A stretch of DNA of 64,000 nucleotides from NCBI GenBank assembly GCA_026415675.1, contig JAOAGQ010000043.1, forward strand, positions 1-64,000. Reading direction: 5' to 3'. Below the pieces are notes generated by a model. That model saw only the letters and a program-made list of their open reading frames with translations. It was not told where the DNA came from and ran no database searches. Source of the stretch: Syntrophorhabdaceae bacterium. GTDB lineage: Bacteria; Desulfobacterota; Syntrophorhabdia; Syntrophorhabdales; Syntrophorhabdaceae. The first letter of the stretch is position 1. Each line of letters begins with the position of its first letter. Made by a program: the position numbers and the translations under genes. Shown piece by piece: positions 35,816-62,389 of this stretch.

Positions 35816-35826
35816 GGAGGGCTAAG

Positions 35827-45099: not shown

Positions 45100-45144
45100 A
45101 GGCGTCATAATCAAGGGATAGAGATTATAGACGCCTATTTTTTT
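45100..45144 (+). terminator. Leader hairpin 2 of amt, next to the ribosome site
   Basis: Arms 45100-45112 and 45123-45136 form 13 bp with one bulged A, a 10-nt loop and seven T (45138-45144). The T-run abuts the GGAGGT of amt. Its outer arm aggcgtc is complementary to the right arm of hairpin 1, so the two hairpins can exchange partners. Confidence 0.75.
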
Positions 45145-45154
45145 GGAGGTGCGT

Positions 45155-46510
45155 ATGAAAAAGTCGGTATTGGTATTAATGTTATTATTGTCGCTTCTGT
45201 TTGTTGTATGTGCTTTTGCCTCGGAACCTGAAAAAAAGGGGGAAGAGGTGCTCGCCCAGAACCCCATCTCTCCCCAACCGAAGGTGGATACAGGGGATAC
45301 CGCTTGGCTCCTTGTGTCGTCTGCCCTTGTCTTACTTATGACACCAGGGCTTGCCTTTTTCTATGGAGGTATGGTGGGGAAAAAAAACGTCCTTGGTATA
45401 CTAATGCAATGTTTTACCATCATGTGTATAATCAGTATCCAGTGGATTCTCTTCGGTTATAGCCTCTCCTTTGCCCCTGGAAAGGGCTTCTTCGGGGCCC
45501 TGGACTGGATCGGGCTAAAAGGGGTGGGTCTTGAACCGTATAAGGATTATGCGGCAACCATACCCCATCAGTTGTTCACAGTATTCCAGTTGATGTTCGC
45601 CATCATAACCCCCGCATTGATCATAGGTGCCTTTGCGGAGAGGATGAAGTTTTCCGCATTTGTGGTCTTCATAATCCTCTGGTCGATCTTTGTATATGAT
45701 CCTGTCTGCCACTGGGTATGGGGGATAGGAGGCTGGCTTAAAGAGATGGGGGCCCTCGATTTTGCAGGGGGAACGGTGGTACACATAAATGCCGGGATTG
45801 CAGCCCTCGTATCCGCTATCGTGATAGGTAAGAGAAGAGGAGATGCCCATAAGGCCATCCTACCCCATAACCTTCCCTTTACGATACTCGGGACCGCTTT
45901 ACTCTGGTTTGGATGGTTCGGTTTTAATGCAGGGAGTGCCTTATCCGCAAACGGTCTTGCTGTTAATGCCTTTGTGGTAACCAATACCGCCGCAGCAGCA
46001 GCAGGCTTAATGTGGGCGGTTCTTGACTGGATATTCAATGAAAAACCGACCGTACTCGGTACTGCAACGGGATCTGTAGCAGGCCTTGTTGCGATAACCC
46101 CTGCCGCAGGTTACGTAAGTGCGCTGTCGGCCATAGTAATCGGTTTTTCAGTAAGTATATTCTGTTTTATCGCCGTAACCGTTATAAAGCCCCGTTTTGG
46201 GTACGATGATGCCCTGGATGTATTCGGGGTCCATTGTATCGGGGGTATATGGGGTGCTATTGCGACAGGGCTATTTGCGTCAAAGGGTATAAACCCTGAT
46301 GGGGCGAACGGGCTCTTCTTTGGAAATCCCAAGCAGTTGTATGTCCAAGTGGTTGCCGTTGCCGTAACTATAGTATACAGTTTTATAGTGAGTTTTATCA
46401 TCCTCAAGGTGGTAGATATCTTTATGAAGATAAGGGTAACAGATAAGGAAGAGACGATGGGTCTCGATCTCACCCAGCATCATGAAAATGCATATACAAT
46501 AATAGAATAG
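45155..46510 (+). CDS. amt: Ammonium transporter Amt
   Basis: Inner-membrane ammonium channel, 451 residues. A signal-peptide-like N-terminus (1-20) and a short periplasmic stretch precede eleven predicted membrane helices. The pore twin His residues are in [16 protein letters not shown] and [18 protein letters not shown]; the gate Phe and Trp region is in [14 protein letters not shown] cytoplasmic tail of about 30 residues could bind P-II. ATG 45155 follows GGAGGT by 4 nt; TTG 45143 would lie in the terminator T-run. Expressed together with the P-II gene 10 nt downstream. Confidence 0.96.
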
Positions 46511-46520
46511 GAGGGCTCAA

Positions 46521-46862
46521 ATGAAGCTTATCATTGCCATCATAAAACCGGACAGGCTTGACGCAGTAAAGAAAGAGCTGTATAAGGCGGATGTAAACCT
46601 TATTACGGTGAATGAGGTCTTAGGTCACGGCAGACAGATGGGGATAACAGAGGTATACAGAGGGGCAAAGGAGATGGGGAATCTATTAAGGAAAATACGT
46701 CTCGAGATTGCCGTAAACGAAGACTTCGTGGAACCGACGATTAAGGCGATAATAAAAGGGGCACAAACAGGGGAGGTGGGGGACGGTAAGATATTTGTCC
46801 TCGACCTTCTCGATTGCATAAGGATCAGAACGGAAGAAAGGGGAAATATCGCAATCGGATAA
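46521..46862 (+). CDS. glnB: P-II nitrogen regulator, variant lacking Tyr51
   Basis: A 113-residue trimeric P-II signal protein that senses 2-oxoglutarate and ATP/ADP and usually gates the adjacent Amt. The N-terminus [16 protein letters not shown] and the motif [11 protein letters not shown] are standard. Aligned without gaps to E. coli GlnB, the T-loop reads [17 protein letters not shown]: Tyr46 is kept but the uridylylated Tyr51 is Glu. It should therefore escape GlnD modification. Being linked to amt it could also be named glnK. A terminator follows at once. Confidence 0.93.
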
Positions 46863-47081: not shown

Positions 47082-49178
47082 ATGGAACTCACAGAGATTT
47101 TTGGATCAAACGTTTTTAACGACAAGGTTATGAGGGAACGCCTTCCGAAACAGGTCTACCAGATTATGAGAGAGACGATCGAAAAGGATAAACCGTTGAG
47201 ACCTGACATTGCCGATGTTGTTGCAAATGCCATGAAAGATTGGGCTATAGAAAAAGGGGCAACCCACTATACCCATTGGTTTCAACCTCTAACAGGTGTA
47301 ACAGCGGAAAAACATGACTCATTCATATCCCAGACATCAGAAGGGGGCATTCTTCTTGAGTTTTCAGGAAAGCAGTTGATCCAAGGGGAACCCGACGCAT
47401 CATCCTTCCCGAGCGGCGGTTTAAGAAGTACCTTTGAGGCAAGGGGGTATACGGTATGGGACTGCACCTCCCCGGCGTTCTTAAAGACCGATGAGGCAGG
47501 GAATGTAACCCTTACCATCCCCACCGCATTCTACTCATATAATGGGGAAGCCCTGGATAAGAAGACACCTCTTTTGAGGTCCATGAAAGCGGTATCCAAA
47601 CAGGCCTTAAGGGTCTTAAGGGCCCTCGGCAACACAACATCCCAGAGGGTCACATCCACGGTGGGTCCAGAACAGGAATATTTCCTGGTCGATAAGAATA
47701 TGTACCTGAAAAGAATAGATCTCATACTCACAGGAAGGACCCTATTCGGTAGTCCGGCCCCGAAAGGTCAGGAGCTTGAGGATCAGTATTTCGGTTCCAT
47801 AAAGGACAGGGTCTCAAAATATATGAACGAACTGAATAGAGAACTATGGAAGATGGGCATCACCGCGAAGACCCAGCATAACGAGGTCGCCCCTTCCCAG
47901 TATGAGATGGCCCCCATCTTCTCAACGACGAATATAGCGGCCGACCATAACCAGCTTGTCATGGAGACCATGCAGAAGGTTGCTTTGCGGAATGGTCTTG
48001 TATGCCTCCTCCATGAGAAACCTTATGCCGGCATAAATGGTTCTGGCAAACACTGCAACTGGTCCCTGTCAACGGATGATGGGATAAACCTCTTAGAACC
48101 CGGTCATACCCCTCATGATAATTTACAGTTTCTCCTGTTTATAAGTGCTCTTATAAAGGCGGTCGATACCCACGCGGACATTCTTAGGGCAACATGCGCC
48201 CATGCAGGAAACGACCACCGTCTGGGGGCAAACGAGGCCCCTCCGGCGATCATGTCCATATTTATGGGGGACGAGTTGACAGAAATTCTTGAGAAGCTCG
48301 CAAAAGGGGAGAGGGTCTCCAAAAAGGGCGTACAGTATATGAATGTGGGTGTCGATACCCTCCCTGCGATCCCCAAGGACAATACGGACAGGAACAGGAC
48401 ATCTCCCTTTGCCTTTACGGGTAATAAGTTCGAGTTCAGAACGGTCGGTTCTTCCCAGTCCATATCGGGACCAAACGTTACCCTGAACACGATTGTGGCA
48501 GAGGCCCTCGATGAGATCGCAACCCGCCTTGAAAAGGCAGAAGACATCAACCAGGAAGCGGCCTCCATCATAAAAGAGATATACCAAAAACATAGCAGGG
48601 TCATCTTCAACGGCAATAACTATTCTGAAGAATGGGTACAGGAGGCTGCCAGAAGAGGGTTACCAAACATAACAAATTCTGTAGATGCCCTAAAGGCCTT
48701 TGTTACGGATAAGTCTTTAAATCTCTTTGAAAAATACGGTGTCCTCTCCCATAAAGAGTTGCACTCCCGTTTTGAGATCTATATGGAGACATACTCAAAG
48801 GAGATAAATATAGAGGGGAATACCGCGGTCTATATGACAAAGAGACTGTTCCTCCCCGCTGTGATGGAATATGTGACATTTCTCTCCGATTCCATTTATA
48901 AGGCAAGGGCCATATCTATAGATTCCTATACACAGGAGGAACTGCTAAAGAAAATAAACGACCTTTTGACTTCTGCATATAAGAACTTAAAAAGACTCGA
49001 GATGGCCTTGGAGGAGGCACAGACCATATCCGATACGGTCAAAAAGGCTGAAAAATATAGAGACGATGTTTTAACCGCCATGCAGGCTTTAAGAAAAGAT
49101 ATTGACGCCCTTGAGACTTATATACCTGAGGATAAGTGGCCTGTCCCGACATATAAGGATCTCCTTTTCAAACTATAA
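47082..49178 (+). CDS. glnN: Glutamine synthetase type III
   Basis: ATP-dependent ammonia assimilation into glutamine. The 698-residue length and the motifs [48 protein letters not shown] and [16 protein letters not shown] mark the GSIII (GlnN) family, found in Bacteroides, cyanobacteria and some anaerobes, and distinct from GlnA. The C-terminal third includes a helical region (TYKDLLFKL end). It follows the amt-glnB pair and precedes amidotransferase and glutamate synthase genes, making a full GS-GOGAT set. Confidence 0.96.
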
Positions 49179-49435: not shown

Positions 49436-50176
49436 ATGAAAGGAAAAGCACTATTTATAAAACATGTAGAAACAGAAGGGCCCGGCTACCTTGAGGATTT
49501 TTTCAGGGATAACGGTTTTTCCACCGAGACGATAGAACTCTCTCGTGGGGAAAGGATACCCAATGATTTGTCTGAAATAGATTCTGTAATCATCCTCGGG
49601 GGGCCTATGAATGTCTATGAAGAGGATAGGTACCCATTTCTTGTGGAGGAGGGGGATTTCATAAAGAAGATAATAGAGGAAAAGATACCATTACTCGGCA
49701 TATGCTTGGGGGCACAACTTCTCGCAAAGGCCTGTGGAGCACCGGTAGTTAGGTCACCAAAAAAAGAGATAGGCTGGTATAGGGTCAATATTACCGACGA
49801 TGGGGAAAAAGACCCTCTCTTCAAAGGCTTAGAGCGTTCCTTTCCGGTCTTTCAGTGGCATGAGGATATGTTCCATATACCCACCCAGGGCAGTCTCCTT
49901 GCAAGGGGAAGGCTCTGTAAAAATCAGGCTTTTAAAATCGGTTCCTCCTCCTATGGTCTTCAGTTCCATATCGAGGTTACAGAGGAGATGGTTGAATCGT
50001 GGTTAGAGGAGATAGATATGCCAAAGAGGAGGAAAAGTAGAATCCTTGGGGATACCTATAAAAATATAAAATTGCTTCGTACTCAAAGGGAAAGACTATT
50101 CCAAAATCTGGCGATGATCCTTGCCCAATCATCCAAAAAGGGTGATGAAAAGGGGGGAGGAAAAAAATGGATATAA
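49436..50176 (+). CDS. Class I glutamine amidotransferase, GMP synthase-like
   Basis: A 246-residue GATase1 domain protein. The nucleophile Cys is in LLGICLGAQLLAKACG and the His/Glu pair in YGLQFHIEVTEEM, so a glutaminase triad is present. Such stand-alone proteins (GMP synthase glutaminase-like) have mostly unknown acceptors. It lies between glnN and the MvhD/MetV genes, 48 nt before the former. Ammonia donation or hydrolysis of a gamma-glutamyl compound in nitrogen metabolism is plausible. The Lys/Gly-rich tail KKGDEKGGGKKW is odd but probably unstructured. Confidence 0.85.
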   Translation: MKGKALFIKHVETEGPGYLEDFFRDNGFSTETIELSRGERIPNDLSEIDSVIILGGPMNVYEEDRYPFLVEEGDFIKKIIEEKIPLLGICLGAQLLAKACGAPVVRSPKKEIGWYRVNITDDGEKDPLFKGLERSFPVFQWHEDMFHIPTQGSLLARGRLCKNQAFKIGSSSYGLQFHIEVTEEMVESWLEEIDMPKRRKSRILGDTYKNIKLLRTQRERLFQNLAMILAQSSKKGDEKGGGKKWI

Positions 50177-50224: not shown

Positions 50225-50656
50225 ATGGAAACAAAAGAGGAAAGACAAGGGTTAAACTTCTATTTCTTTTTCTGCCAGAGGATAGATAAGGAGCAAGAAA
50301 AAAATAGAAGAACGATAGAGAAAAGTATGGGAGATAAAGTAAGGTTATTTCCCATTCCCTGCAGCGGAAGGATTGAACCGATCCATATCTTAAGGGCCTT
50401 AGAAAAGGGGGCGGATAAAGTATATGTTTTGACCTGTAGGGAAGGCCTCTGTAGATACCGTGAAGGTAATCTCAGGGCAAAAAAGAGGGTTTCATACGCC
50501 CAGAAGCTGATGGAAGAGATCGGTCTTGAGAAGGAGCGGGTAGAGCTTATCAACCTTAAAAAAGAAAATGGCATGACGATAGATACCCTTGTTGAGGATC
50601 TTGTAGGCAAAAAGACAAACATAGGGTCCTCACCATTGAATAAACCTTTACTGTAA
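50225..50656 (+). CDS. MvhD/FlpD-like electron-transfer subunit
   Basis: A 143-residue member of the hydrogenase iron-sulfur subunit family (MvhD, FrhD, FlpD), which links heterodisulfide reductase-type complexes to dehydrogenases through a 2Fe-2S site. Motifs kept: PCSGRIEPIHILRALEKGADKVYV with Cys46 and TCREGLCRYREGN with Cys71 and Cys76. The usual Cys-rich N-terminus CCNWCSY is reduced to a single Cys17 in FFFCQR. ATG 50225 has AGGAGG 8 nt upstream. It precedes metV by 36 nt. HdrA, its normal partner, is absent from the window. Confidence 0.85.
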   Translation: METKEERQGLNFYFFFCQRIDKEQEKNRRTIEKSMGDKVRLFPIPCSGRIEPIHILRALEKGADKVYVLTCREGLCRYREGNLRAKKRVSYAQKLMEEIGLEKERVELINLKKENGMTIDTLVEDLVGKKTNIGSSPLNKPLL

Positions 50657-50692
50657 TGTAATGGGCATAGCAAAGATAAAAGGAGAATAGGC

Positions 50693-51361
50693 ATGATAAC
50701 CGCGGAGAGAAAGCCCTTTGAAGAAATAAAGGAAATGGTAAAGCCATACAGCAAGCTGCTTGTGGTCGGCTGTGGAACCTGTGTGGCCGAGTGTGCTGCA
50801 GGAGGAGAAAAAGAGGTGGCCCTTCTCGCCTCTGCCCTGAGGATGGAGGCAAGGATGGAGAATAGAGTTGTGGAGATTGACGAAATGACTCTGGATAGAC
50901 AGTGTGTCTATGAATTTATAGACCAGCTCACCGAAACTGTAGACAACTACGATGCCATCCTCTCCTTGGGCTGCGGGGCAGGGGTTCAGGCAGTATCCGA
51001 TGTCTTCCCTGACATGACCGTTCTGCCTGCTTTAAACACAACATTCCTCGGAGAAACGAAAGCCCCCGGGGTCTGGATGGAAAATTGCAGGGGCTGCGGT
51101 GATTGCAAGCTCCATATCTTTGGGGCGATCTGTCCTGTGGCGAGATGTGCAAAGGGCCTCTTCAATGGACCCTGCGGTGGTTCGAAAGATAAAAGGTGTG
51201 AAGTCCATCCCGATACCCCCTGCGCATGGCATATGATCATAGAGCGCCTTGAGAAGAAGGGTCGTCTCGAGCAACTGAACAATATATACCCCCCCGTAGA
51301 CTGGTCTACTGGACAGGGAAAGGGACCCAGAAAAATAGAGAGAGAGGACCAGATGATATGA
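50693..51361 (+). CDS. metV: MetV, Fe-S partner of methylene-THF reductase
   Basis: A 222-residue Fe-S/zinc protein equal to the MTHFR C-terminal domain family (MetV), the partner subunit of MetF in acetogens. It has a first Cys motif GCGTCVAECAAGGEKEV and a dense C-terminal region ENCRGCGDCKLH, CPVARCAKGLFNGPCGG, CEV and PCAW. In Moorella and related organisms MetV joins MetF to an electron-donor complex. Its last bases overlap the metF ATG (ATGA), so both are made together. Acts in the cytoplasm in the methyl branch of one-carbon metabolism. Confidence 0.9.
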   Translation: MITAERKPFEEIKEMVKPYSKLLVVGCGTCVAECAAGGEKEVALLASALRMEARMENRVVEIDEMTLDRQCVYEFIDQLTETVDNYDAILSLGCGAGVQAVSDVFPDMTVLPALNTTFLGETKAPGVWMENCRGCGDCKLHIFGAICPVARCAKGLFNGPCGGSKDKRCEVHPDTPCAWHMIIERLEKKGRLEQLNNIYPPVDWSTGQGKGPRKIEREDQMI

Positions 51362-52281
51362 AAAGAGAGAGCAATTTAAAAAAAGTGCTATCGGCCGGCC
51401 ATTTTGCAGTCACAGCAGAGTGTGGTCCCCCGAAGGGAGCCGATGAAGGCCCGATAAAGAAAAAAGGGGGCATGCTGAAAGGTTATGTGGACAGCGTTAA
51501 CGTAACGGATAATCAGACCGGGGTTGTTCGTCTCTCTTCTCTTGCCGCATGTGTGATCCTTAAGGAGGAGGGGATCGATCCTGTACTCCAGATGGTTACC
51601 CGAGACAGAAACAGGATTGCCCTCCAATCCGACATACTCGGCGCATCTGCCCTCGGTATAAGGAATATCCTCTGTTTAAGTGGAGACCACCAATCTTTTG
51701 GCAACCAGAAAGGGGCAAAGGGTGTCTTTGATATAGACTCCATACAACTCATCCATACGGTAAAGACCATGAGGGACGAAGGGAAGATAATAGGAGGCGA
51801 AGCCCTTACAGCCCCACCCCAGCTTTTTATAGGGGCCGCGGAGAATCCCTTTGCGGATCCCTTTTCATACAGAGTCTTACGTCTCGGAAAGAAGATAAGG
51901 GCAGGGGCGGAGTTCATCCAGACCCAGTGTATATATGATATTCCCCGATTCAAAGAGTGGATTGGTATGGTGAGAGATGAGGGTATGGATCAAAAAGTCT
52001 ATATTCTCGGCGGTATCACCCCTCTCAAATCAGCAAAAATGGCAGAATATATGAATGGCCATGTGGCAGGTATCACCATCCCGGAAGGGATCATCGATAG
52101 GATGAAAAAGGTACCCCCTAAAGACCAGCGTGAAGAAGGGATAAAAATTGCCATCGAAACGATAGAGGCCTTAAAAGAGATGAAGGGCATCCACGGTGTA
52201 CATATTATGGCCATAGAATGGGAAGAGATAGTCCCCCAGATAGTGGAGAAGGCAAACCTGTACCCCAGACCATCCCTATAA
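51358..52281 (+). CDS. metF: 5,10-methylenetetrahydrofolate reductase
   Basis: FAD enzyme that reduces methylene-THF to methyl-THF, or runs in reverse in some anaerobes. The 307-residue barrel has the catalytic-region AVTAECGPPKGAD, NVTDNQTGVVRLSSLA, NILCLSGDH, GAEFIQTQCIYDIPRF and GGITPLKSAKMAEYM. It is shorter than eukaryotic MTHFR, as usual for bacteria, and its electrons likely come by MetV and the MvhD-like protein rather than directly from NADH. The glutamate-synthase-like Fe-S gene begins 12 nt downstream. Confidence 0.94.
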   Translation: MKRESNLKKVLSAGHFAVTAECGPPKGADEGPIKKKGGMLKGYVDSVNVTDNQTGVVRLSSLAACVILKEEGIDPVLQMVTRDRNRIALQSDILGASALGIRNILCLSGDHQSFGNQKGAKGVFDIDSIQLIHTVKTMRDEGKIIGGEALTAPPQLFIGAAENPFADPFSYRVLRLGKKIRAGAEFIQTQCIYDIPRFKEWIGMVRDEGMDQKVYILGGITPLKSAKMAEYMNGHVAGITIPEGIIDRMKKVPPKDQREEGIKIAIETIEALKEMKGIHGVHIMAIEWEEIVPQIVEKANLYPRPSL

Positions 52282-52293
52282 GGAGCTTATTTT

Positions 52294-53682
52294 ATGCCAA
52301 AAAAATACCATATCCATACATCTTCCGTTCAAAACAGGTTACCGAAGATCATAAAGTCCGGCGTCATCGCCTGGGAGGAGGGATGCCTCAAATGTGCGAG
52401 GTGTGTGAAAAAAGAATGCGTATATAAAGTATACGAAAAAAGGGGTCTCGATGGAGAGAGTATGGTCGACTCCACTGATACCATGTGTATGGATTGCTTC
52501 AGGTGTGTCCAGAACTGTCCCAATCGCCTGATCCAGAAAGGCATAAACCCCCTGTACAGGGACATGGGTGATGAGTACTGGACACCGGATATCATCTCTA
52601 ATATCTGGTTTCAGGCAGAAACAGGGAGGATCCCCGTCTCCGGGGCAGGATATGGAGGGCCTTTCTCTGGGCCTGGCTTTGATTCCATGTGGACGGATAT
52701 GTCAGAGATCGTACGGCCCACAAGGGACGGTATCCATGGTCGAGAATACATAAGTACAACGGTGGATATCGGAAGAAAACCGATGTACCTCGAATTCGGA
52801 GATGACGGCTCTCTGTTAACCCCCATACCGCCTCTCGTAGAAATTCCCCTCCCCGTTATATTTGATCTACTCCCCTTCTCCCCTCCAGGAGATAATATAC
52901 CCCAGTCTCTAATCGCCGGTGCCCGTTCTATAAACACATATGTGATTATGAAATGGTCCTATCTTAAGGAGAAGGGTATAAGCCCTCTTCAGAATATCAT
53001 ACCCTTTTTGGATGGGAACACCGATGATATAGAAGAGGGAGTGATAAAATCCATACCCATTATAGAGATACCTGATCGTGGAGAGCCGGTCTCGGTCCAG
53101 AATAGATTAAACGAGATAAACCCCCAGCTCGTCGTGATGATTAGGGTCGAACTTGCCCCAGGCATTGAAGAAAAGGCCTGTGATCTCACGAAAAAAGGGG
53201 CCCATACGCTCCACCTCTGTGCCGATGAGTTCGGCAATGAGCAGGCGGAGAAACCCCTCTTTATCAAAGACAGGGTAAGATCCGTGCACGGCACCTTGGT
53301 AGAGAAAGGCATAAGGGATCAGGTAACGTTACTTGCCAGTGGGGGCATTGCCATGGCCGAACATATGGCAAAACTCATTATCTGTGGTGCCGACTGTGTT
53401 GCCGTAGACATACCCCTTCTCGTCGCCATGGAATGTAGGATATGCCGTCGCTGTAAAGAAGGACTGTCGTGTCCCGCAAAGCTTGAAACCGTAGAACCCC
53501 AGTGGGGTGGCAAAAGGATAACGAACCTCATGGGGGGCTGGCATAACCAGCTCCTCGAGGTATTAGGGGCGATGGGAATGAGAGAGGTGAGAAGGCTCCG
53601 GGGAGAAATGGGTAGGGCTATGTTTTTTGAGGACCTTGAGAGGGAGGTCTTTTCAAATCTCGGACAAAGGGGGCAAGGGTGA
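52294..53682 (+). CDS. Degenerate glutamate synthase-like Fe-S protein
   Basis: A 462-residue protein with two N-terminal 4Fe-4S motifs (C31, C34, C37, C42 and C65, C68, C71, C75) and a domain related to the FMN domain of glutamate synthase. The C-terminal part keeps LLASGGIAMAEHMAKLIICGAD and the cluster motif MECRICRRCKEGLSC. But the segments that in its neighbour read GGMSFG, CTGEGG and GSYGGTGAAPD are here replaced by unrelated sequence (LPFSPPGDN and CADEFGNEQAEK). It has probably lost glutamate synthase catalysis and serves as electron carrier or scaffold. It overlaps the next gene by 4 nt. Confidence 0.8.
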   Translation: MPKKYHIHTSSVQNRLPKIIKSGVIAWEEGCLKCARCVKKECVYKVYEKRGLDGESMVDSTDTMCMDCFRCVQNCPNRLIQKGINPLYRDMGDEYWTPDIISNIWFQAETGRIPVSGAGYGGPFSGPGFDSMWTDMSEIVRPTRDGIHGREYISTTVDIGRKPMYLEFGDDGSLLTPIPPLVEIPLPVIFDLLPFSPPGDNIPQSLIAGARSINTYVIMKWSYLKEKGISPLQNIIPFLDGNTDDIEEGVIKSIPIIEIPDRGEPVSVQNRLNEINPQLVVMIRVELAPGIEEKACDLTKKGAHTLHLCADEFGNEQAEKPLFIKDRVRSVHGTLVEKGIRDQVTLLASGGIAMAEHMAKLIICGADCVAVDIPLLVAMECRICRRCKEGLSCPAKLETVEPQWGGKRITNLMGGWHNQLLEVLGAMGMREVRRLRGEMGRAMFFEDLEREVFSNLGQRGQG

Positions 53683-55202
53683 TGGTGTGTTCTGAAGATA
53701 GTTTTGTCTTTCCCAAGGTAGAGAGGGCAAGAAGCCGTTTTAAAAATGCCCTCGGAAAATTCAAAATAATAATAGATAAGAGATGTAATAACTGCGGGTT
53801 GTGTATCGAATTATGTCCCTTCGGGGTATTTAAAAAGGGGGCAAAGAGACCAAAACCGCAGAACGACCATCTATGTATCGGCTTTGTATGTAGAAAAAAC
53901 CCCTATCATTGTGTGGATAGGTGTCCTAAAGGGGCGATATCCCTTTTTGTAAATCCCTCCTTCGAGATTTTAGGGGATAGAAGGTGGACCGGGGATCTCC
54001 TTGTAAGTACATGGCATATGGCGGAGACAGGGAGCATACCCCATCAGGGATTAAACTATAAAACAGGTGATTCAAGGGGGGGCTTCGATAAGCTCCGCTT
54101 TGTTTTTCCCGAGAAACTTCCTGAAGGGACTTATAATGGAGAGATAGATACCGCTATTGAGCTTAATAGATCCAACGATGGTCGTCCAAATGTAAGAATC
54201 CCTATACCTCTATATCTCGGGGGCATGTCCTTTGGGTCTGTAAGTATAACAACCATGCTTTCAAGGGTAAAGGCGGCCGCTGCCCTCGGTACATTCTGTT
54301 GTACAGGAGAAGGGGGATACCCGGAGGAGCTTATACCTTACGACGACCATGTGATCACCCAGGTTGCCACAGGCCTTTTCGGGGTTCGGGAAGAGACGAT
54401 AAAAAGGGTTCGCATAGTGGAATTCAAGTATGCCCAAGGGGCAAAACCTGGGCTCGGCGGACACCTTTTAGGGGATAAGGTAACACCAAGGGTGGCAAGG
54501 ATGAGGGAGGCGGTTGTAGGGAGTGCCCTATTCTCTCCTTTTCCTTTTCACAGCGTCTATTCTGTAGAAGACCATAAGAAACATGTAGACTGGATAAAGG
54601 AGATAAATCCGAGGGCCCTTGTTTCGGTGAAGGTCTCTACACCGACCGATGTGGACATGGTGGCTGTGGGTAGTTACTACGCAGGGGCCCATATAGTCCA
54701 TCTCGATGGTAGTTACGGCGGTACAGGGGCTGCCCCTGATATAGCGAAGAAGAATATCGCCATGCCGATAGAATACGCCATTCCAAAAGTGCACAAGTTC
54801 CTCATAGAAGAAGGTATCAGGGACAGGATAACCATCATAGCGAGCGGGGGGATAAGAACCGCATACGATATGGCTAAGGCCATTGCCCTTGGGGCTGATG
54901 GGGTCTGTCTTGGAACTGCCGACCTTGTAGCCCTCGAATGTATACGTTGCCATCACTGCGAATCAGGCAGGGGCTGTGCGAGGGGTATTGCAACAACGGA
55001 CCCTGAACTATCGAATTTGGTTGAGCTAAAATGGGGTACCCAGAGGATCATCAATTTGTATATCGCATGGCGGGAGCAGCTTATCGATATTTTAAGGCGT
55101 CTTGGAATGAAGAGCGTAACAGAACTCGTTGGAAGGTACGATACCCTCGTCCACCTCGATTATGTGAAAAAGGAGGAGGTCAGAGGGGAGATGGAAGATT
55201 GA
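53679..55202 (+). CDS. Glutamate synthase, FMN/Fe-S subunit (archaeal type)
   Basis: A 507-residue GltB2-type subunit. Two ferredoxin motifs open the protein (C36, C39, C42, C46 and C66, C71, C78, C82). The FMN barrel keeps all main motifs: LGGMSFGSVSITT, CTGEGGYPEE, KPGLGGHLLG, VKVSTPTDVDM, LDGSYGGTGAAPD, IASGGIRTAYDMAKAIALGADGV split in two, and the cluster motif LECIRCHHCESGRGC. It makes glutamate from 2-oxoglutarate and ammonia channelled from the next subunit. No NAD(P)H-binding GltD is present here, so ferredoxin or the MvhD/Fe-S neighbour should give electrons. Confidence 0.9.
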   Translation: MMVCSEDSFVFPKVERARSRFKNALGKFKIIIDKRCNNCGLCIELCPFGVFKKGAKRPKPQNDHLCIGFVCRKNPYHCVDRCPKGAISLFVNPSFEILGDRRWTGDLLVSTWHMAETGSIPHQGLNYKTGDSRGGFDKLRFVFPEKLPEGTYNGEIDTAIELNRSNDGRPNVRIPIPLYLGGMSFGSVSITTMLSRVKAAAALGTFCCTGEGGYPEELIPYDDHVITQVATGLFGVREETIKRVRIVEFKYAQGAKPGLGGHLLGDKVTPRVARMREAVVGSALFSPFPFHSVYSVEDHKKHVDWIKEINPRALVSVKVSTPTDVDMVAVGSYYAGAHIVHLDGSYGGTGAAPDIAKKNIAMPIEYAIPKVHKFLIEEGIRDRITIIASGGIRTAYDMAKAIALGADGVCLGTADLVALECIRCHHCESGRGCARGIATTDPELSNLVELKWGTQRIINLYIAWREQLIDILRRLGMKSVTELVGRYDTLVHLDYVKKEEVRGEMED

Positions 55203-55210
55203 GGTGACAA

Positions 55211-57859
55211 ATGAGGATGAAAGAGATAGCCAAGGCAATCATAGATTCAAGAAAGGATCTACCCCCTGGGGCTGCGCATATCAATAGATACGATATGGAC
55301 ATAGAGGAAGGGGGATGCGGTGTCACAGGGTTTGCCTGTAATATACCTGTGAGCGGTCGCCATATAATTGAGCCTTCCGTTCAGATGCACAACCGGGGAA
55401 ACGGGAAAGGGGGAGGTATAGCAGCCGTTGGATTGACCCCGGAAAAGCTCGGGGTCAGCAGGGAGGTACTGGAAAACGATTTTATCCTCCAGATAGCCCT
55501 CCTCGATAAATCTGTGTTGAATGAGATGGAGGCGAGGTTTATCCGTCCATACTTCTCGGTAGATCACGAAGCCTTTGTGGAGACCGTAGAGGATTATCGT
55601 GATATATCCGGCCTTGAGGTGAAACCCCCCGATGTGAAACGTTATTTTGTCCGGGTTAAACCCGAGGTGCTCGACCGTTTCGGAAGAGAAAAGGGTCTAC
55701 AAAGACTCTCTTTAGACAAGATAGAAGAGGAGTTCATCTATCAGAATTCTTATAATTTAAACTTGAACCTGTACAGTGCCCTGGGAGAGAAAAAGGCCTT
55801 TGTCCTCTCCCACGGGAAGAATATGATGATCCTGAAGATAGTGGGCTATGCGGAAATGGCTGCCATGTACTATAAACTCGAGAATTTTGAGGCCCATATC
55901 TGGATAGCCCATCAACGCTATCCTACCAAAGGAAGGGTATGGCATCCGGGAGGTGCCCATCCTTTTATAGGTCTAAATGAAGCATTGGTCCACAACGGGG
56001 ATTTTGCAAACTACCATTCCGTATCGGAATACCTTAAACAGAGGCATGTATACCCCCTGTTTCTGACGGACACAGAGGTCTCCGTCCTTGTCTTTGACCT
56101 TCTAAACAGGGTCTACGGGTACCCCCTCGAGTATATCATAGAGGCCCTTGCCCCCACAGGGGAGCTGGATTTCGACCATCTTCCCGATGAAAAAAAAGAG
56201 ATATATAGACAGATACAGGCAGCACACATCCACGGTTCCCCTGATGGACCCTGGTTTTTTATCATCGCGAGAAATGATGTTAAAAAGGGAGAGTTTCAGC
56301 TCATCGGTATCACCGACACCTCCATGTTGAGACCACAGGTCTTTGCCTTGCAGAAGGGCGATGTCGAGATAGGGCTTATATGTTCAGAAAAACAGGCGAT
56401 AGATGCCACCCTTGAGAGCCTCTTCAAGGAAGATCCCAGATTCGGGAAAGTCGCCGATATGTACTGGAATGCAAGAGGGGGGAGCTATTCGGACGGTGGT
56501 GCCTTTGTCTTTACCGTAAAAAAGGATAGAAACGGCGGCCATACCCTCGAGTGTACCGATAAATTTGGTCGGATTAAAGAGATAGAGCAGAAGGAGAAAC
56601 CTCTCGATTTTTCAGTGAAACCATCCGTTTTGAAAAGGGAAAAAATAAGAGGCCTTAATGAAATAATCGATATTTTTGAAGAAAACTCAACGTACGAATT
56701 ATTCCGTGGCATAACACCACTTATTCCAACATGGAATTACGAAGAGTTTCAAACTGTTATCGACACTATCAAAGGCTTTGCGGAAAAAGATCAGTTAAAA
56801 GAAAAGGTGATAGAGCTACTCACCCTCCTTCTCGATATGCGTTACCATACAGGGGCCTTAAGGCGCAGGTCAATCTTGCAGATACTAACGGATGCCCTTG
56901 ACTCTATTTTTCTAAAGACCCCTTCCATAGAAGATATGTCATCGACAGGCTATGGAAAGGGCATAAACTTTGAGACAAGGAAAAGTATAAGACCCCCGAG
57001 AGGAGAAGAGCAGGTGCTCTTTGCCGATGCGAGTCGGTTTCCCCCTGAAGGGGATGAATCCTTTGCCCGACTCATATCGGATGCCTATGCCCTCGGATGG
57101 AAGAGGTTTATCTGTTTCAGACATAGGGGACAACGCTTTCTGGGATGCGGTCTTGGCCCGGACACAAAGGGTGTACGGATTGATGCTTACGGGTCAACCG
57201 GGGACTACCTCGCCTCAGGCATTGACGGGATGGAGATATATGTCCATGGAAACGGCCAAGATCAACTCGGACAGATCATAAAAGCAGGAAAACTCGTTGT
57301 TTACGGAGATGTAGGTCAGACATTCATGTACGGAGCCAAAGGGGGAGAGGTATACGTGATGGGAAACGCCGCAGGGAGACCCCTTATAAATGCGGTAGGT
57401 AGACCTAGAGTTGTAATAAACGGTACTGCCCTTGACTTTCTCGCCGAATCTTTTATGGCCGGCGATCCCCATAATAACGGGGGATTTGTCGTATTGAACG
57501 GTCTTACCTTCGATAGCAAAGGTAAAATAGTATTCTACGATACCCCCTATCCAGGCTCTAACCTCTTCTCCCTTGCCTCAGGAGGTGCTATTTTTGTGAG
57601 AGACCCCTATAAAAAGATCGTGCCGGAGCAGTTAAACGGCGGTCAGATTATGCCCTTTGAGGAGAGGGACTGGCAACTGATCCTCCCATATCTAAAGGAG
57701 AACGAACGTCTCTTCGGTATAACTATAGAAGAGTTGCTCACCGTTGATGGTGTACAGAGAGAGCCGTATGATGTATACCGTACAATCGGGGCTGTAAAAC
57801 TATCGATGCTCGCCGGCACAGCATTAATCGCAAACGAAGAGTGGGAGGAAGAGTTGTAG
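55211..57859 (+). CDS. Glutamate synthase glutaminase plus GXGXG subunit
   Basis: An 882-residue fusion of two glutamate synthase parts. The N-terminal class II amidotransferase has its nucleophile at Cys36 (EGGCGVTGF), so a 35-residue propeptide must be removed. Further motifs are SVQMHNRGNGKGGG, HQRYPTKGRVWHPGGAHPF and LVHNGDFANY. After a linker (about 470-640) comes a GXGXG beta-helix domain with GDVGQTFMYGAKGGEVYVMG and GRPLINAVGRPRVVIN. With the preceding FMN subunit this yields a complete synthase split as 1+3 and 2. It is the last gene of the block. Confidence 0.9.
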   Translation: MRMKEIAKAIIDSRKDLPPGAAHINRYDMDIEEGGCGVTGFACNIPVSGRHIIEPSVQMHNRGNGKGGGIAAVGLTPEKLGVSREVLENDFILQIALLDKSVLNEMEARFIRPYFSVDHEAFVETVEDYRDISGLEVKPPDVKRYFVRVKPEVLDRFGREKGLQRLSLDKIEEEFIYQNSYNLNLNLYSALGEKKAFVLSHGKNMMILKIVGYAEMAAMYYKLENFEAHIWIAHQRYPTKGRVWHPGGAHPFIGLNEALVHNGDFANYHSVSEYLKQRHVYPLFLTDTEVSVLVFDLLNRVYGYPLEYIIEALAPTGELDFDHLPDEKKEIYRQIQAAHIHGSPDGPWFFIIARNDVKKGEFQLIGITDTSMLRPQVFALQKGDVEIGLICSEKQAIDATLESLFKEDPRFGKVADMYWNARGGSYSDGGAFVFTVKKDRNGGHTLECTDKFGRIKEIEQKEKPLDFSVKPSVLKREKIRGLNEIIDIFEENSTYELFRGITPLIPTWNYEEFQTVIDTIKGFAEKDQLKEKVIELLTLLLDMRYHTGALRRRSILQILTDALDSIFLKTPSIEDMSSTGYGKGINFETRKSIRPPRGEEQVLFADASRFPPEGDESFARLISDAYALGWKRFICFRHRGQRFLGCGLGPDTKGVRIDAYGSTGDYLASGIDGMEIYVHGNGQDQLGQIIKAGKLVVYGDVGQTFMYGAKGGEVYVMGNAAGRPLINAVGRPRVVINGTALDFLAESFMAGDPHNNGGFVVLNGLTFDSKGKIVFYDTPYPGSNLFSLASGGAIFVRDPYKKIVPEQLNGGQIMPFEERDWQLILPYLKENERLFGITIEELLTVDGVQREPYDVYRTIGAVKLSMLAGTALIANEEWEEEL

Positions 57860-58193
57860 CTCTTCCTTTCCCTTTTTTCTCACAAATAGTTGATTCTGCA
57901 ACAATTTTATCTTGACAAATTTGGATACTAAATATAGTATCAATATATAGATTATAACTGTATATTGGGGTATGGGTATATAAAAAGCATTTTTTATATT
58001 GGTGATATTTGTTGATTTTAAAAACAAAAAATAAGTACAATAGAGTTGGATTAAGTAAAATTAAAAATTTATCAAAAACTGTTAACACACGGTTTTTAAG
58101 GAATTTTATAGCCTTATATAAGGTTACTGGCGGTAGCCTTTTAAAATTTTGTATGATAGAAAGGATTACTACTTAAACGGAGGGTTCTGAGCA
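57860..58193 (+). promoter_or_regulatory. Leader and control region of the exopolysaccharide cluster
   Basis: This 334-nt AT-rich gap holds a promoter (TTGACA 57912-57917, 17-nt spacer, TAGTAT 57935-57940). An inverted repeat GATACT-N6-AGTATC (57924-57941) fills the space between the two boxes and covers the -10, as a repressor operator would. A leader of about 245 nt follows, with a palindrome ccttatataagg (58112-58123) and a terminator-like hairpin (58120-58144). No gene or tRNA was recognised in it. Confidence 0.6.
58120..58144 (+). terminator. Terminator-like hairpin in the EPS leader
   Basis: aaggttac (58120-58127) pairs with gtagcctt (58133-58140) with one G-U, followed by TTTT. Its left arm overlaps the palindrome ccttatataagg, so the two structures exclude each other. 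It lies 50 nt before the first gene and may act as an attenuator. Confidence 0.45.
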
Positions 58194-58940
58194 TTGAGGT
58201 GTTTAGCAAAGAGAATAACGGTGATCCTGATCATCCTTTCTTCTCTTTCTCCCTTTGGTTGCGGAGGACCTATGGTGAAAAATCCTGCAAATTTTGCCGT
58301 TCCCCAGACCCATATCTATCCGAGACCCGAACTCTTTACCCCAGATACCCCCTATAAAATACAGGTAGGGGATACACTCGATATCAAATTCTTCTATAAC
58401 CCTGAATTGAACGAGAGGGACCTCCCGGTTAGACCTGATGGAAGGATCTCCCTCCAGTTGATAGATGAGGTATATGTGGCAGGCTTGACACCCCTTGAAC
58501 TGCGAGACCTCCTAAAGAAGAAATACGAAACAACGGAACTTAAAAATGTCGAGATATCGGTTATAGTCCGTTCTTTCAGCCATCAGAAGGTCTTCGTAGA
58601 CGGTGAGGTGGGCGTTCCAACCCTTGTACCCATTATGGGCCAGCTCACGGTCATGCAGGCGATAGCCCAGGCAAGGGGCATGAAGGAGACTGCCCGGAGA
58701 TGGGAGGTGATCGTAATAAGGTTCGGAAGAGACCATAAACCCATGATAACGACCGTTAACCTCGACAAGGTCTTAGACGGTACCGATTTGAACCAGGATA
58801 TACTCCTTATGCCTTACGATATCGTCTATGTCCCCAGATCTCCTATAGCAAACTTTGACCTTTGGGTGGACCAGTATATAAGAAGGGCTCTGCCTTTCCC
58901 CCTTCCCTCCCCTGTTCCCACCCCTACTATAAACTATTAA
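58194..58940 (+). CDS. Polysaccharide export protein (Wza/XrtA type)
   Basis: A 248-residue outer-membrane lipoprotein of the OPX family. Signal peptide with lipobox ending FGC (Cys23), a poly_export domain (about 50-135, YKIQVGDTLDIKFFYNPELN and RPDGRISLQLIDEVYVAGLTP) and an SLBB domain (HQKVFVDGEVGVPTLVPI). It should form the outer-membrane exit for the polymer. The start is TTG 58194, 9 nt after GGAGGG. Similar to the XrtA/PEP-CTERM exopolysaccharide export protein by context. Confidence 0.9.
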   Translation: MRCLAKRITVILIILSSLSPFGCGGPMVKNPANFAVPQTHIYPRPELFTPDTPYKIQVGDTLDIKFFYNPELNERDLPVRPDGRISLQLIDEVYVAGLTPLELRDLLKKKYETTELKNVEISVIVRSFSHQKVFVDGEVGVPTLVPIMGQLTVMQAIAQARGMKETARRWEVIVIRFGRDHKPMITTVNLDKVLDGTDLNQDILLMPYDIVYVPRSPIANFDLWVDQYIRRALPFPLPSPVPTPTINY

Positions 58941-58959
58941 AGGAGTTTGTGGTGATTCT

Positions 58960-60351
58960 ATGAAAGAGAAAACACCTACCTTAAGCTTAAGGGATCTCCT
59001 CACAATCTTTTTTAAACATAAATACAAGATAGTCTTTTCGTTTTTGCCCATCACCATAGTAACGATTTATGTAGCCCTAACCCTTCCCACCCACTATGTG
59101 GCAAAATCGGTGATTATGGTAAAACCGGGCAGAGAATTCGCCCCTGTAGCGGATGTGGCCATATCGGAGACGAGGATACCAACTATCAATACCGAGACCA
59201 TGATAAACACGGAGATCCAGATCCTCTCGAGCCATGACCTGATAGCCCGGGTTGTAAACGAAATAGGGGCCACAAATTTGTACCCTGAACTTAGAACCAC
59301 AGGCGTTTCAAAACAGCTCGCGGAGAAGGCGGCTGTAGATCGATTCTTGCAGGATCTCCTTGCCAAACCTGTGAAGACGAGTAATGCCATTGAGATATAC
59401 TACAGACATCCAAACCCCCAGATGGCGGCCAGGGTATTAAACACCCTTGTCGAATTCTTAAAGGATAAACACCTCCAGATTTTCGGGGAGACAAAATCCC
59501 CTTTTATAGAAGAACAACTAAAAGTTTACGAGAACAAACTCCGGGAAGCGGTGGAAAGGTTGCAGACCTTTAAAGATAAAAACCAGATTTCCAATCTAAG
59601 AGACCAGTACTACTTCCTCATAGGAAAGAAAACAGAGATTGAGTCTGCATTAAAGCTTGAGACGAGCAGACTGGAAGAGATAAAGAAGAAGATAGCCTTT
59701 CTCCAGAGCCAGAAGAAGAAGGCGGTGTCAGACCTCTATACGGCAAGTGTGGGCTCGAAACTCGTGGATCTCGAGACAAAGGAGATGCAGCTTTTGGCTA
59801 CGTACAAAGAGAACAGCCGACCTGTAATCCAGATCAGAAAAGAGATCCAGAAGGTGAAGGATGCCCTTCGTCAGTACGAGGAAGAGTTGAAAGAGAGTCA
59901 AGAATGGACTTCCCTACAGGCGGATATCGGGCCCCAGGAATTGAAGATAAATAACTTAAAACAGCAGTATATAGCCCTGGAAAAACAGCTCGCCATGTTG
60001 AGTCTTGCCGGGGAGGAATTAAACAAGCTTGAGAGGGATGCCCAGGTTGCCCAGTCCACATACGAGACATATCTTAAAAAATACGAAGAGGCCCGTATAG
60101 CGGAAGAGATGGACAGAAAGAAGATCACGAACATTCAGATCATAGAGACCGCTGCTGTGCCCAGCATTCCTGTTAAAACAAATCAGAGGAAGGTACTGGG
60201 CGTTGGTTTTTTTCTTGCCGTTGCCGTCAGTTTTGGTTTAGCCTATATGGCAGAGTATATACCTCAGGGTATGACAACCGTCGACAGCGTAACTAAATAC
60301 ATACGTTTGCCTGTACTTGTGGCTGTTTCGTATAAGGTACCAAGGGGGTAA
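58960..60351 (+). CDS. Polysaccharide chain-length determinant (Wzz/GumC-like)
   Basis: A 463-residue inner-membrane PCP protein. One membrane helix near residues 24-46, a Wzz domain with NTEIQILSSHDLIARVV, long periplasmic coiled coils (about 180-380), and a second helix near the C-terminus (VLGVGFFLAVAVSFGLAYM). It sets polymer length and connects the export channel with the cytoplasmic kinase-like protein. No kinase domain is fused. AAGGAG lies upstream. Matches the XrtA-system chain-length determinant. Confidence 0.9.
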   Translation: MKEKTPTLSLRDLLTIFFKHKYKIVFSFLPITIVTIYVALTLPTHYVAKSVIMVKPGREFAPVADVAISETRIPTINTETMINTEIQILSSHDLIARVVNEIGATNLYPELRTTGVSKQLAEKAAVDRFLQDLLAKPVKTSNAIEIYYRHPNPQMAARVLNTLVEFLKDKHLQIFGETKSPFIEEQLKVYENKLREAVERLQTFKDKNQISNLRDQYYFLIGKKTEIESALKLETSRLEEIKKKIAFLQSQKKKAVSDLYTASVGSKLVDLETKEMQLLATYKENSRPVIQIRKEIQKVKDALRQYEEELKESQEWTSLQADIGPQELKINNLKQQYIALEKQLAMLSLAGEELNKLERDAQVAQSTYETYLKKYEEARIAEEMDRKKITNIQIIETAAVPSIPVKTNQRKVLGVGFFLAVAVSFGLAYMAEYIPQGMTTVDSVTKYIRLPVLVAVSYKVPRG

Positions 60352-60354
60352 AAG

Positions 60355-61638
60355 TTGTATCTAAATTATTATGGCTTAAAGAGAGAACCCTTCCACATCA
60401 CACCTGACCCAGATTTTCTCTTTCTAAGCGATAGCCATAAACAGGCCCTTGCCTCAATGATGTATGCCATTGAGAAGAAAAAGGGTTTTGCCGCAATAAC
60501 AGGTGGTGTGGGTGTTGGGAAGACAACAGTATTGCGCTCCTATCTCGAAAAGATGGACCACTCAAACCTCAAACTCATTTACATCTTCAACCCAAATATA
60601 CCTTTTAAGACCCTTGTGGCTGTGATCCTCCAGGAGCTGGGGGCAAAGCCCATTACATATGACATATCCGATATGGTACAGCAACTCCACCTTGTGCTTA
60701 TAGACGAGTACAGCGCAGGAAGGGATGTGGTTGTAATCATAGATGAGGCACAGAATATGCCTGTCGAGACACTGGAAAACTTGCGGATGCTCTCAAACCT
60801 TGAGACCTCAACGGACAAACTCATACAGATCATACTCATAGGGCAGACGGAGTTCGATGAGATTCTCAACAAATTCGAACTGAGACAGTTGAAGCAGCGT
60901 ATCGCCATAAGGGCGACGATTACCCCCCTATCACCCCAAGAGAGTCTCGCCTATATCAAGCACAGGCTTATGAAGGCCGGTATGAGGGAAGGACAACTCT
61001 ATTCGATATTCACGAAGAGTGCCCTAAACATGATCATCGAGCATTCAAAGGGTATCCCAAGGGTAATCAACATCCTCTGCGATAATGCCCTGATCACCGG
61101 TTTCGGCCATCAGGAGTACCCTATCACAACAAAGACAACAAGGGAAGTGATAAACGATTTCAGTCGGATCGGAAAAAAGAAGGAGTTTACCCTTTTTAAA
61201 TGGGAATACGCTGCCCTTGCCACCCTTCTTTTGATTTTGTCTGTCTTTCTCATGACGTCAGAGAAGAACCCTGTTGTTACCGCGATCACAGAAATCATAT
61301 GGAACAGAACAAAACCAAACATCGTTAAGGAAGATGTAAATCTCATACCGAGAAAGATACCCATCAAACCGGCATCGGAGACCCGAGAGGATAAGCCGGT
61401 GAAAAAGGAAGAGTTAAAAGAGTTCGATGAAGGTGCCGTTGTAAAGATCGTGGGTAAAGGGGAAAACCTCTTTCAACTCATCGAAGATGTATACGGAATA
61501 AGGGATAGAAGGTTTATAGACAGGGAACTCATTGAACTCCTGAAAAAGAGTAATCCCCATATAAAAGATTTTAATTCGATTAGTGCAGGGGAGAAGATCA
61601 TCTTCCCGAGAATTTCTAAACTCAAGGACAGCCTTTGA
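60355..61638 (+). CDS. XrtA-associated ATPase (ExeA-like AAA) with C-terminal LysM-like domain
   Basis: A 427-residue protein. The N-terminus MYLNYYGLKREPFHITPDP is typical of ExeA/PEP-CTERM ATPases, followed by Walker A GGVGVGKTTVLRS, Walker B VVVIIDEAQNMP and a sensor region KQRIAIRATITPLSPQE. A single membrane helix (about 282-299, YAALATLLLILSVFLM) leads to a probably periplasmic C-terminal part with a LysM-like motif KGENLFQLIEDVYG and SAGEKIIFP. TTG start 3 nt after the previous stop with AAGGGGG upstream. Likely energises or organises polymer assembly. Confidence 0.87.
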   Translation: MYLNYYGLKREPFHITPDPDFLFLSDSHKQALASMMYAIEKKKGFAAITGGVGVGKTTVLRSYLEKMDHSNLKLIYIFNPNIPFKTLVAVILQELGAKPITYDISDMVQQLHLVLIDEYSAGRDVVVIIDEAQNMPVETLENLRMLSNLETSTDKLIQIILIGQTEFDEILNKFELRQLKQRIAIRATITPLSPQESLAYIKHRLMKAGMREGQLYSIFTKSALNMIIEHSKGIPRVINILCDNALITGFGHQEYPITTKTTREVINDFSRIGKKKEFTLFKWEYAALATLLLILSVFLMTSEKNPVVTAITEIIWNRTKPNIVKEDVNLIPRKIPIKPASETREDKPVKKEELKEFDEGAVVKIVGKGENLFQLIEDVYGIRDRRFIDRELIELLKKSNPHIKDFNSISAGEKIIFPRISKLKDSL

Positions 61639-62348
61639 GCAAGATATTTGAGGCATTAGAGCACGCAAAGCAGAAATTAAGGCACTCCAAAACCGTCTCG
61701 ACGGTCACAGAGACATCAAGGCTGAACATGGAGTATGACATGATTCAGCTATACCAGATGGTAAGCCATGCAATTACCCAGAAAGGGTACAAGATATTTC
61801 AGATTATCGGCTCTGTTGCAAGGGAAGGGGCCTCCACAATCTCGAGGGAATTTGCAAGTACCCTCGCCATGAGACTCGGCAAAAACGTCCTTCTCCTCGA
61901 TGCGGACCCAGAAATTCCCACCCACCATCAAGCTTTTAATATAAACATCACAAGGGATATGAAGAGCGTGATAAAGGGAGGGACCCCTATTGTTGAAGCA
62001 TTATACAGGGTAGAGGATACAAGCCTTTTCATAGCAGCGATGTCCGTTAGTGATTCCTATGGGGCAGATCTTTTCGATTCTCCTCGGATAGATAGGGTAT
62101 GGGAGGAGTTCAAAAGGAGATTCGATATAGTGATCGTGGACTCGCCCCCTGGAGGAGCATCGCCTATAGGTTTCACAATATGCCGTACCGTTGATGCGGT
62201 GATTCTCGTCGTTGAAGCGGAGAAAACGAGATGGCCCGTTGTGCTCAACGTCAAGGAAAGGCTTTTGCAGAACGGAGCAAACATAATAGGGGTCGTCTTC
62301 AACAAAAGGAAATTCTACATCCCAGGATGGATTTACAGAAGGCTTTAA
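61635..62348 (+). CDS. CpsD/CapB-type kinase-like protein with altered Walker A
   Basis: A 237-residue protein of the BY-kinase/ParA-like family. The N-terminus SKIFEALEHAKQKL is typical. The Walker A site reads GSVAREGASTIS (59-70), in which the usual Lys is Ala66; Walker A' (VLLLDADPEIP) and B (DIVIVDSPPGG) remain. There is no C-terminal Tyr cluster, only two Tyr in YIPGWIYRRL. Autokinase activity is therefore doubtful. TTG start overlaps the previous TGA (TTGA). It should still pair with the chain-length determinant in the membrane. Confidence 0.85.
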   Translation: MSKIFEALEHAKQKLRHSKTVSTVTETSRLNMEYDMIQLYQMVSHAITQKGYKIFQIIGSVAREGASTISREFASTLAMRLGKNVLLLDADPEIPTHHQAFNINITRDMKSVIKGGTPIVEALYRVEDTSLFIAAMSVSDSYGADLFDSPRIDRVWEEFKRRFDIVIVDSPPGGASPIGFTICRTVDAVILVVEAEKTRWPVVLNVKERLLQNGANIIGVVFNKRKFYIPGWIYRRL

Positions 62349-62389
62349 TTTTCACAGACAATTTTATAGAAAAATAAAGGGCAAAAAGA

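Follow-up and report, generated by a model that had tools for sequence, protein, structure and literature searches.

How does a glutamate synthase obtain its electrons when its operon holds no GltD? This enzyme is one of the main gates of nitrogen assimilation and is known to take electrons from the reduced nicotinamide nucleotides (NAD(P)H) by way of GltD, from ferredoxin and, probably, from coenzyme F420. The question is raised by six contiguous plus-strand open reading frames (ORFs) at 50225-57859 in a 64,000-nucleotide stretch from a Syntrophorhabdaceae bacterium (GCA_026415675.1, contig JAOAGQ010000043.1, positions 1 to 64,000), here called the window. In order, they encode MvhD, MetV, MetF, an iron-sulfur (Fe-S) protein that we name GltX, GltB2 and a fusion of GltB1 and GltB3 (GltB1+3, gene gltB13). 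An uninterrupted order with small gaps or overlaps had been described in an earlier, sequence-only reading of the window, and ORFs and Pfam matches confirm it, with intergenic gaps of -4 to +36 bases. We see an even chance that the block is a split, archaeal-type glutamate synthase in which MvhD, GltX and MetVF (the methylene-tetrahydrofolate (THF) reductase pair MetV and MetF) form an electron input replacing GltD. The results below lend partial support to a new form of electron supply for glutamate synthase, and also to the sequence-only interpretation overall, in which one complex would link one-carbon (C1) redox chemistry with glutamate formation.

GltX and the synthase subunits

The sequence-only reading had described the product of the fourth gene as a GltS-like Fe-S protein. 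It is actually homologous to GltB2 over its entire length (hhalign 100%, E 1.9e-67), with a 44-residue gap that covers the invariant GltB2 segment KYAQGAKPGLGGHL...SPFPFHSVYS, the stretch around KYAQGAKPGLGGHLLG...SPFPFHSVYS. As this gap removes the catalytic loop, we rejected an active glutamate synthase as the identity of GltX. The protein carries 12 Fe-S cysteines, eight N-terminal and four C-terminal (CxxCxxCx5C), and almost every one of 46 sequences retains them. With the catalytic loop gone and these cysteines retained, GltX is, judged by its sequence, a catalytically degenerate GltB2 paralogue that survives as an Fe-S protein, and we propose that it serves as an electron adaptor. An AlphaFold2 model (predicted local distance difference test, pLDDT, 82; predicted template modelling score, pTM, 0.82) resembles flavin mononucleotide (FMN) TIM barrels, glutamate synthases among them, in structure comparison. 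The most conserved motif, PVSGAGYGG...MWTDMSEIVRPTRDGIHGREYI at residues 115-151, falls in a low-confidence part of this model, as would be expected if it becomes ordered only against a partner. GltB2 keeps the invariant QGAKPGLGGHL motif in the alignment (the QGAKPGxGG motif of synthases), and the solved structures closest to it belong to glutamate synthases (E 4e-52). GltX and GltB2 are fused in L034/L144, L103, L105 and L111.

Distribution and gene order

We searched 60 related genomes for the GltX and GltB2 families. A strong GltX match was found in 35 of them, the window genome included, with GltB2 next to it on every examined contig that extends beyond it; in G004 and G046 GltX stands at a contig end, which explains why GltB2 is cut or fragmentary there. 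All 33 genomes with this GltB2 subtype (about 260-320 bits against PF01645; hand-counted from tables) have GltX. A scan of named genome contigs yielded at least 556 confirmed GltX relatives, of which the best 80 loci were analysed, a choice that biases the set to the window's own type. These 80 belong mostly to Thermodesulfobacteriota/Deltaproteobacteria, but also to Nitrospirota, Spirochaetota, Planctomycetota, Chloroflexota and, in one record, Latescibacterota. The full order MvhD-MetV-MetF-GltX-GltB2-GltB13 is shared by loci from different families and phyla, and MvhD-MetV-MetF-GltX is seen in 48 of the best 80 loci, Nitrospirota and Spirochaetota among them. Co-occurrence and fixed order of the six families are thus kept in many loci, and this conservation across phyla led us to reject an artefact or a chance neighbourhood. 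Clades in the GltX tree follow module type across phyla.

MvhD is present in 73/73 loci with the upstream side covered, although some 1.5 kb farther upstream in L106. In four genomes from the window's family (L142, L143, L166, L167), a FAD_binding_4/Fer4 flavoprotein from the D-lactate/glycolate dehydrogenase group precedes GltX instead, and in L138 one 1924-residue chain joins a FAD_binding_4 dehydrogenase, a GltX-like part and GltB2; this GltX-like part (29% identity) has lost the conserved motif and the C-terminal cysteines. The donor modules seen are MetVF, MetV alone, MetF with HdrCBA, and a flavoprotein resembling D-hydroxyacid dehydrogenases, once fused into the synthase. In L098, L112 and L115, hdrC, hdrB and hdrA directly follow gltB13 (HdrC of L115 by ORF size). 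MetVF comes after gltB13 in L053 and L072, and in L064 MetV occupies the edge of the locus. In L108, HdrA-like and HdrC-like genes are followed by MvhD-MetV-MetF and then by a second MvhD with GltX-GltB2-GltB13. The modules in front of MvhD and GltX vary, usually being flavin or Fe-S redox proteins, which fits an adaptor, while MvhD and GltX accompany GltB2 in almost every variant and are thus the best candidates for the electron input. Since MvhD adjoins GltX even without MetVF, the two together look like a replacement for GltD, and we consider it likely that they are the input module of the synthase. The sequence-only reading had named HdrABC-MvhD as the normal partner of MetVF; this needs to be widened, because MvhD belongs with GltX and GltB too, as the two MvhD genes of L108 also indicate.

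Two arrangements among these loci may be recorded separately. L091 (7707-21368) holds a tandem double copy, one set with both MetV and MetF and the second with MetF only. In L050 (15845-21369) and L069 (11446-16965), a glutamate synthase ORF of 1511 or 1527 residues, respectively, and then a protein with GltD-type domains directly follow the split synthase, so that both systems stand in tandem.

A dedicated second MetVF

A second MetF of the window genome is encoded on contig C70, where the genes run HdrC-HdrB-small ORF-HdrA (1474 residues)-MvhD-MetV-MetF. Given this separate Hdr-linked set, the window MetVF is a dedicated second paralogue, and we rejected a Moorella-type complex that has merely lost Hdr. 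In the MetF tree, 28 of 31 locus rows fall in one clade (96) apart from the Hdr-linked copies, that of the same genome included, and locus MetV is separated likewise. Locus MetV keeps all 13 conserved cysteines, also in loci without MetF. Locus MetF keeps the conserved columns E21, D110 and Q190, which we take to be catalytic by analogy with Escherichia coli MetF; with MetV beside it and these residues present, the pair is by sequence of the MetVF type. D110 is replaced in at least 60% of a MetV-less MetF group, to which L098, L112, L115, L029 and L030 belong and which may act on another substrate. The window genome and 50 of 60 relatives encode the Wood-Ljungdahl protein CdhC/AcsB and therefore have a methyl-THF metabolism whichever direction MetVF runs.

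Locus MvhD keeps Cys30, 59, 84 and 89 (in a reference numbering that starts 13 codons upstream), and in the alignment it has only one cysteine where the Hdr-linked copy carries a CxxC/U motif. The Hdr-linked MvhD (L134:7960-8376, contig C70) reads CCEHU across an in-frame TGA, a candidate selenocysteine codon. Two further FlpD matches in the same genome, on contigs C39 and C38, also contain TGA.

The electron-input partners had been described as missing at this locus, and for the operon this stands: its ORF list and Pfam scan gave no GltD or HdrABC adjoining the six genes, nor an NAD(P)H-binding subunit within the operon, and an FrhB-like subunit had no Pfam match among the ten window proteins scanned. 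It does not extend to the genome, where the Hdr-linked set lies on C70 and GltD-type domains occur elsewhere, or to those relatives whose clusters include hdrCBA.

Proposed electron path and alternatives

From gene order, homology, residues, co-inheritance, fusions and module swaps, we infer a physical complex with a defined path and direction. GltB1+3 would release ammonia from glutamine, and GltB2, with FMN and Fe-S clusters, would reduce 2-iminoglutarate. MvhD would act as a [2Fe-2S] plug and GltX as an Fe-S wire in a relay that replaces GltD, and the second MetVF, with flavin in MetF and Fe-S clusters in MetV, would dock via MvhD. Electrons would then run from MetF through MetV, MvhD and GltX to GltB2, with GltX standing where HdrA stands in the Moorella/Sporomusa complex. 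In the favoured direction, methyl-THF oxidation would drive glutamate synthesis, roughly 0.14 V downhill. The glutamate synthase couple lies at about -60 mV by our estimate, which uses textbook energies for glutamine hydrolysis and the glutamate dehydrogenase reaction. For the methylene-/methyl-THF couple the standard potential (E0') is -200 mV (PMC9430772), low enough for methyl-THF to be able to drive the synthase. When a MetVF enzyme oxidised methyl-THF, flavin adenine dinucleotide (FAD) and rubredoxin were reduced but ferredoxin was not (PMC8760232), which fits an acceptor of higher potential. In Sporomusa pulldowns, MvhD contacts MetF, HdrA and HdrB, and MetV contacts HdrA and MetF (PMC9430772). 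Direct methyl-THF/glutamate coupling thus appears plausible and energetically downhill. We lean slightly towards an electronic coupling of MetVF to MvhD and GltX, and consider it less likely than not that methyl-THF is a donor rather than a second product. A shade more doubtful is the fullest version, a single complex in which methyl-THF is the direct donor for glutamate synthesis with no NAD(P)H or free ferredoxin; it would count both as a fifth methylene-THF reductase type and as a glutamate synthase powered by C1 units, with GltX and MvhD as a general adaptor for interchangeable dehydrogenases.

Several observations weigh against a MetVF-fed synthase. MvhD-GltX occurs with no MetVF seen in the locus in about 11 of the 80 loci, MvhD-MetV-GltX without MetF in 7/80, and MvhD-MetF-GltX without MetV in L098, L112, L115 and the second tandem copy of L091, so the synthase can do without MetVF. 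The locus MetF is the sole methylene-THF reductase (MTHFR) found in G012 and G033, which suggests that it can carry out ordinary folate reduction too. The natural GltX-GltB2 fusion of L103, folded with AlphaFold2, reached a pTM of only 0.50 and gave no usable interface. Tree distances of the locus genes correlate over 25 loci (Spearman 0.71-0.94; MvhD-MetV 0.94, GltX-MetF 0.73), but the comparison covers locus genes only, a weakness in that it has no unlinked control gene, and co-inheritance falls short of proving contact. Free ferredoxin may suffice, given the ferredoxin-like Fe-S domains on GltX and GltB2. It is also possible that a GltD-type partner acts on the synthase from elsewhere in the genome, where an NfnAB-like fusion with GltD-type domains (1160 bits) does not adjoin GltB.

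The loci without MetVF also count towards a different arrangement, in which MvhD (fed by a distant Hdr, hydrogenase or formate dehydrogenase) or ferredoxin supplies a hub that serves GltB2 and MetVF as parallel biosynthetic sinks. HdrCBA in the clusters of L098, L112 and L115 and the joining of an HdrA-HdrC-MvhD-MetVF set to MvhD-GltX-GltB in L108 would suit such a shared input, as would the retained E21, D110 and Q190 of MetF and the ferredoxin dependence in vitro of purified MetVF enzymes (PMC8760232). We nevertheless find it rather unlikely: relatives have a donor-type dehydrogenase in the place of MetVF, in L138 as part of one chain with GltB2, and the genome already has HdrABC-MvhD-MetVF for methylene-THF reduction. 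The same Hdr clusters, together with the role of MvhD as the usual partner of HdrA and several HdrA-type proteins elsewhere in the window genome, could point instead to bifurcation, with an external HdrA on MvhD splitting electrons between ferredoxin and GltX-GltB2 or MetVF and with glutamate synthase as the high-potential branch. No hdr gene is adjacent in the window, however, and the locus MvhD is without the CxxC/U motif of the Hdr-linked copy, which makes this the least probable of the explanations considered. Scarcely more probable is clustering for regulation only, where a ferredoxin-dependent split synthase and a ferredoxin-dependent MetVF would be co-transcribed for nitrogen and C1 assimilation with no electronic contact. 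The position of the block behind Amt, PII and glutamine synthetase speaks for it, and so do the loci where MetVF follows gltB13; yet a dedicated MetVF clade in one order across phyla, the constant presence of MvhD and the persistence of MetV with all its cysteines after MetF is gone all argue for more than shared expression.

Relation to known systems

With the type IV HdrABC-MvhD-MetVF of Moorella thermoacetica and Sporomusa ovata, in which MvhD joins MetVF to HdrA, the locus shares the order MvhD, MetV, MetF, and the same cofactors are expected; it differs in having GltX-GltB2-GltB13 for HdrABC, its own MetV and MetF clades and the altered MvhD, and a normal type IV set is also present in the window genome, on C70. 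The domain split and the ferredoxin-like GltB2 N-terminus are common to the split archaeal-type synthase (GltB1/GltB2/GltB3), whereas the GltB1/GltB3 fusion, the decayed paralogue and a nearly constant MvhD set the locus apart. NADPH-dependent GltBD has the same two half-reactions and synthase fold, but its GltD and NAD(P)H-binding subunit are missing from the operon. A precedent for swapping GltD for another input module is the F420-dependent synthase of methanogens and anaerobic methanotrophic (ANME) archaea, which has an FrhB-like subunit (PMC3087415, PMC9012536) and whose FrhB/F420 input awaits proof by purification (PMC3087415); the locus has MvhD and GltX, with MetVF or other donors, in that place.

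In agreement with the sequence-only reading, we found no description of MetVF clustered with glutamate synthase in the open-access literature searched, though it may have been described elsewhere. A conserved GltD-replacing input with swappable donors would add a class of glutamate synthase with at least 556 loci, mostly from uncultured anaerobes. The gene block suggests that one-carbon metabolism and nitrogen assimilation are directly linked; should MetVF prove to be coupled, Wood-Ljungdahl C1 chemistry would be joined to nitrogen assimilation, with a bearing on which physiological electron partner MetVF-type reductases use, a question still open (PMC8760232).

Annotation of the window

The operon and the genes upstream of it are listed in Table 1. 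MvhD starts with ATG at 50225, preceded by an AGGAGG-like site. In GltB1+3, CGVTGF was read by eye at Cys36 behind a 35-residue leader, and the glutaminase domain matches PF13522 weakly (25.8 bits against a cut-off of 27).

Table 1. Features of the six-gene block and its upstream neighbours, with supporting matches
Feature	Position	Strand	Evidence
Amt ammonium transporter, upstream nitrogen-assimilation gene	45143-46510	+	TIGR00836, 489 bits, above cut-off
PII regulator	46521-46862	+	PF00543, 91.9 bits
Glutamine synthetase type III	47082-49178	+	PF12437, 266 bits
Putative class-I glutamine amidotransferase	49436-50176	+	PF00117, 80.6 bits; position kept in close relatives
MvhD/FlpD-type [2Fe-2S] protein, divergent subfamily	50225-50656	+	PF02662, 97.6 bits
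MetV (DUF5981)	50693-51361	+	PF12225, 122 bits
MetF flavoprotein (MTHFR)	51358-52281	+	PF02219, 134 bits
GltX	52294-53682	+	PF01645 over last third only, 48 bits; plus Fer4
GltB2, FMN synthase subunit, N-terminal Fe-S domain	53679-55202	+	PF01645, 315 bits; plus Fer4
GltB1+GltB3 fusion, putative N-terminal-Cys glutaminase domain and GXGXG domain	55211-57859	+	PF01493 (GXGXG), 46.5 bits, above cut-off
Terminator-like hairpin closing the block	57843-57870	+	12 pairs, then CCTTTTTTCT (T-run)

Elsewhere in the genome, contig C10 (L002:1081-2904) encodes a 608-residue protein with a partial Glu_synthase match and counterparts of similar size in many relatives. Past the operon, 58194-63523 of the window appears by eye to hold a gene cluster for the synthesis and export of polysaccharide (Wza-like, Wzc-like, ATPase, kinase, sugar transferase). 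A CCG Fe-S protein of 447 residues (35806-37149) follows a 485-residue ORF (34358-35815), and the pair might form a lactate or other hydroxyacid dehydrogenase. A lactate racemase-like protein is encoded at 1618-2874.

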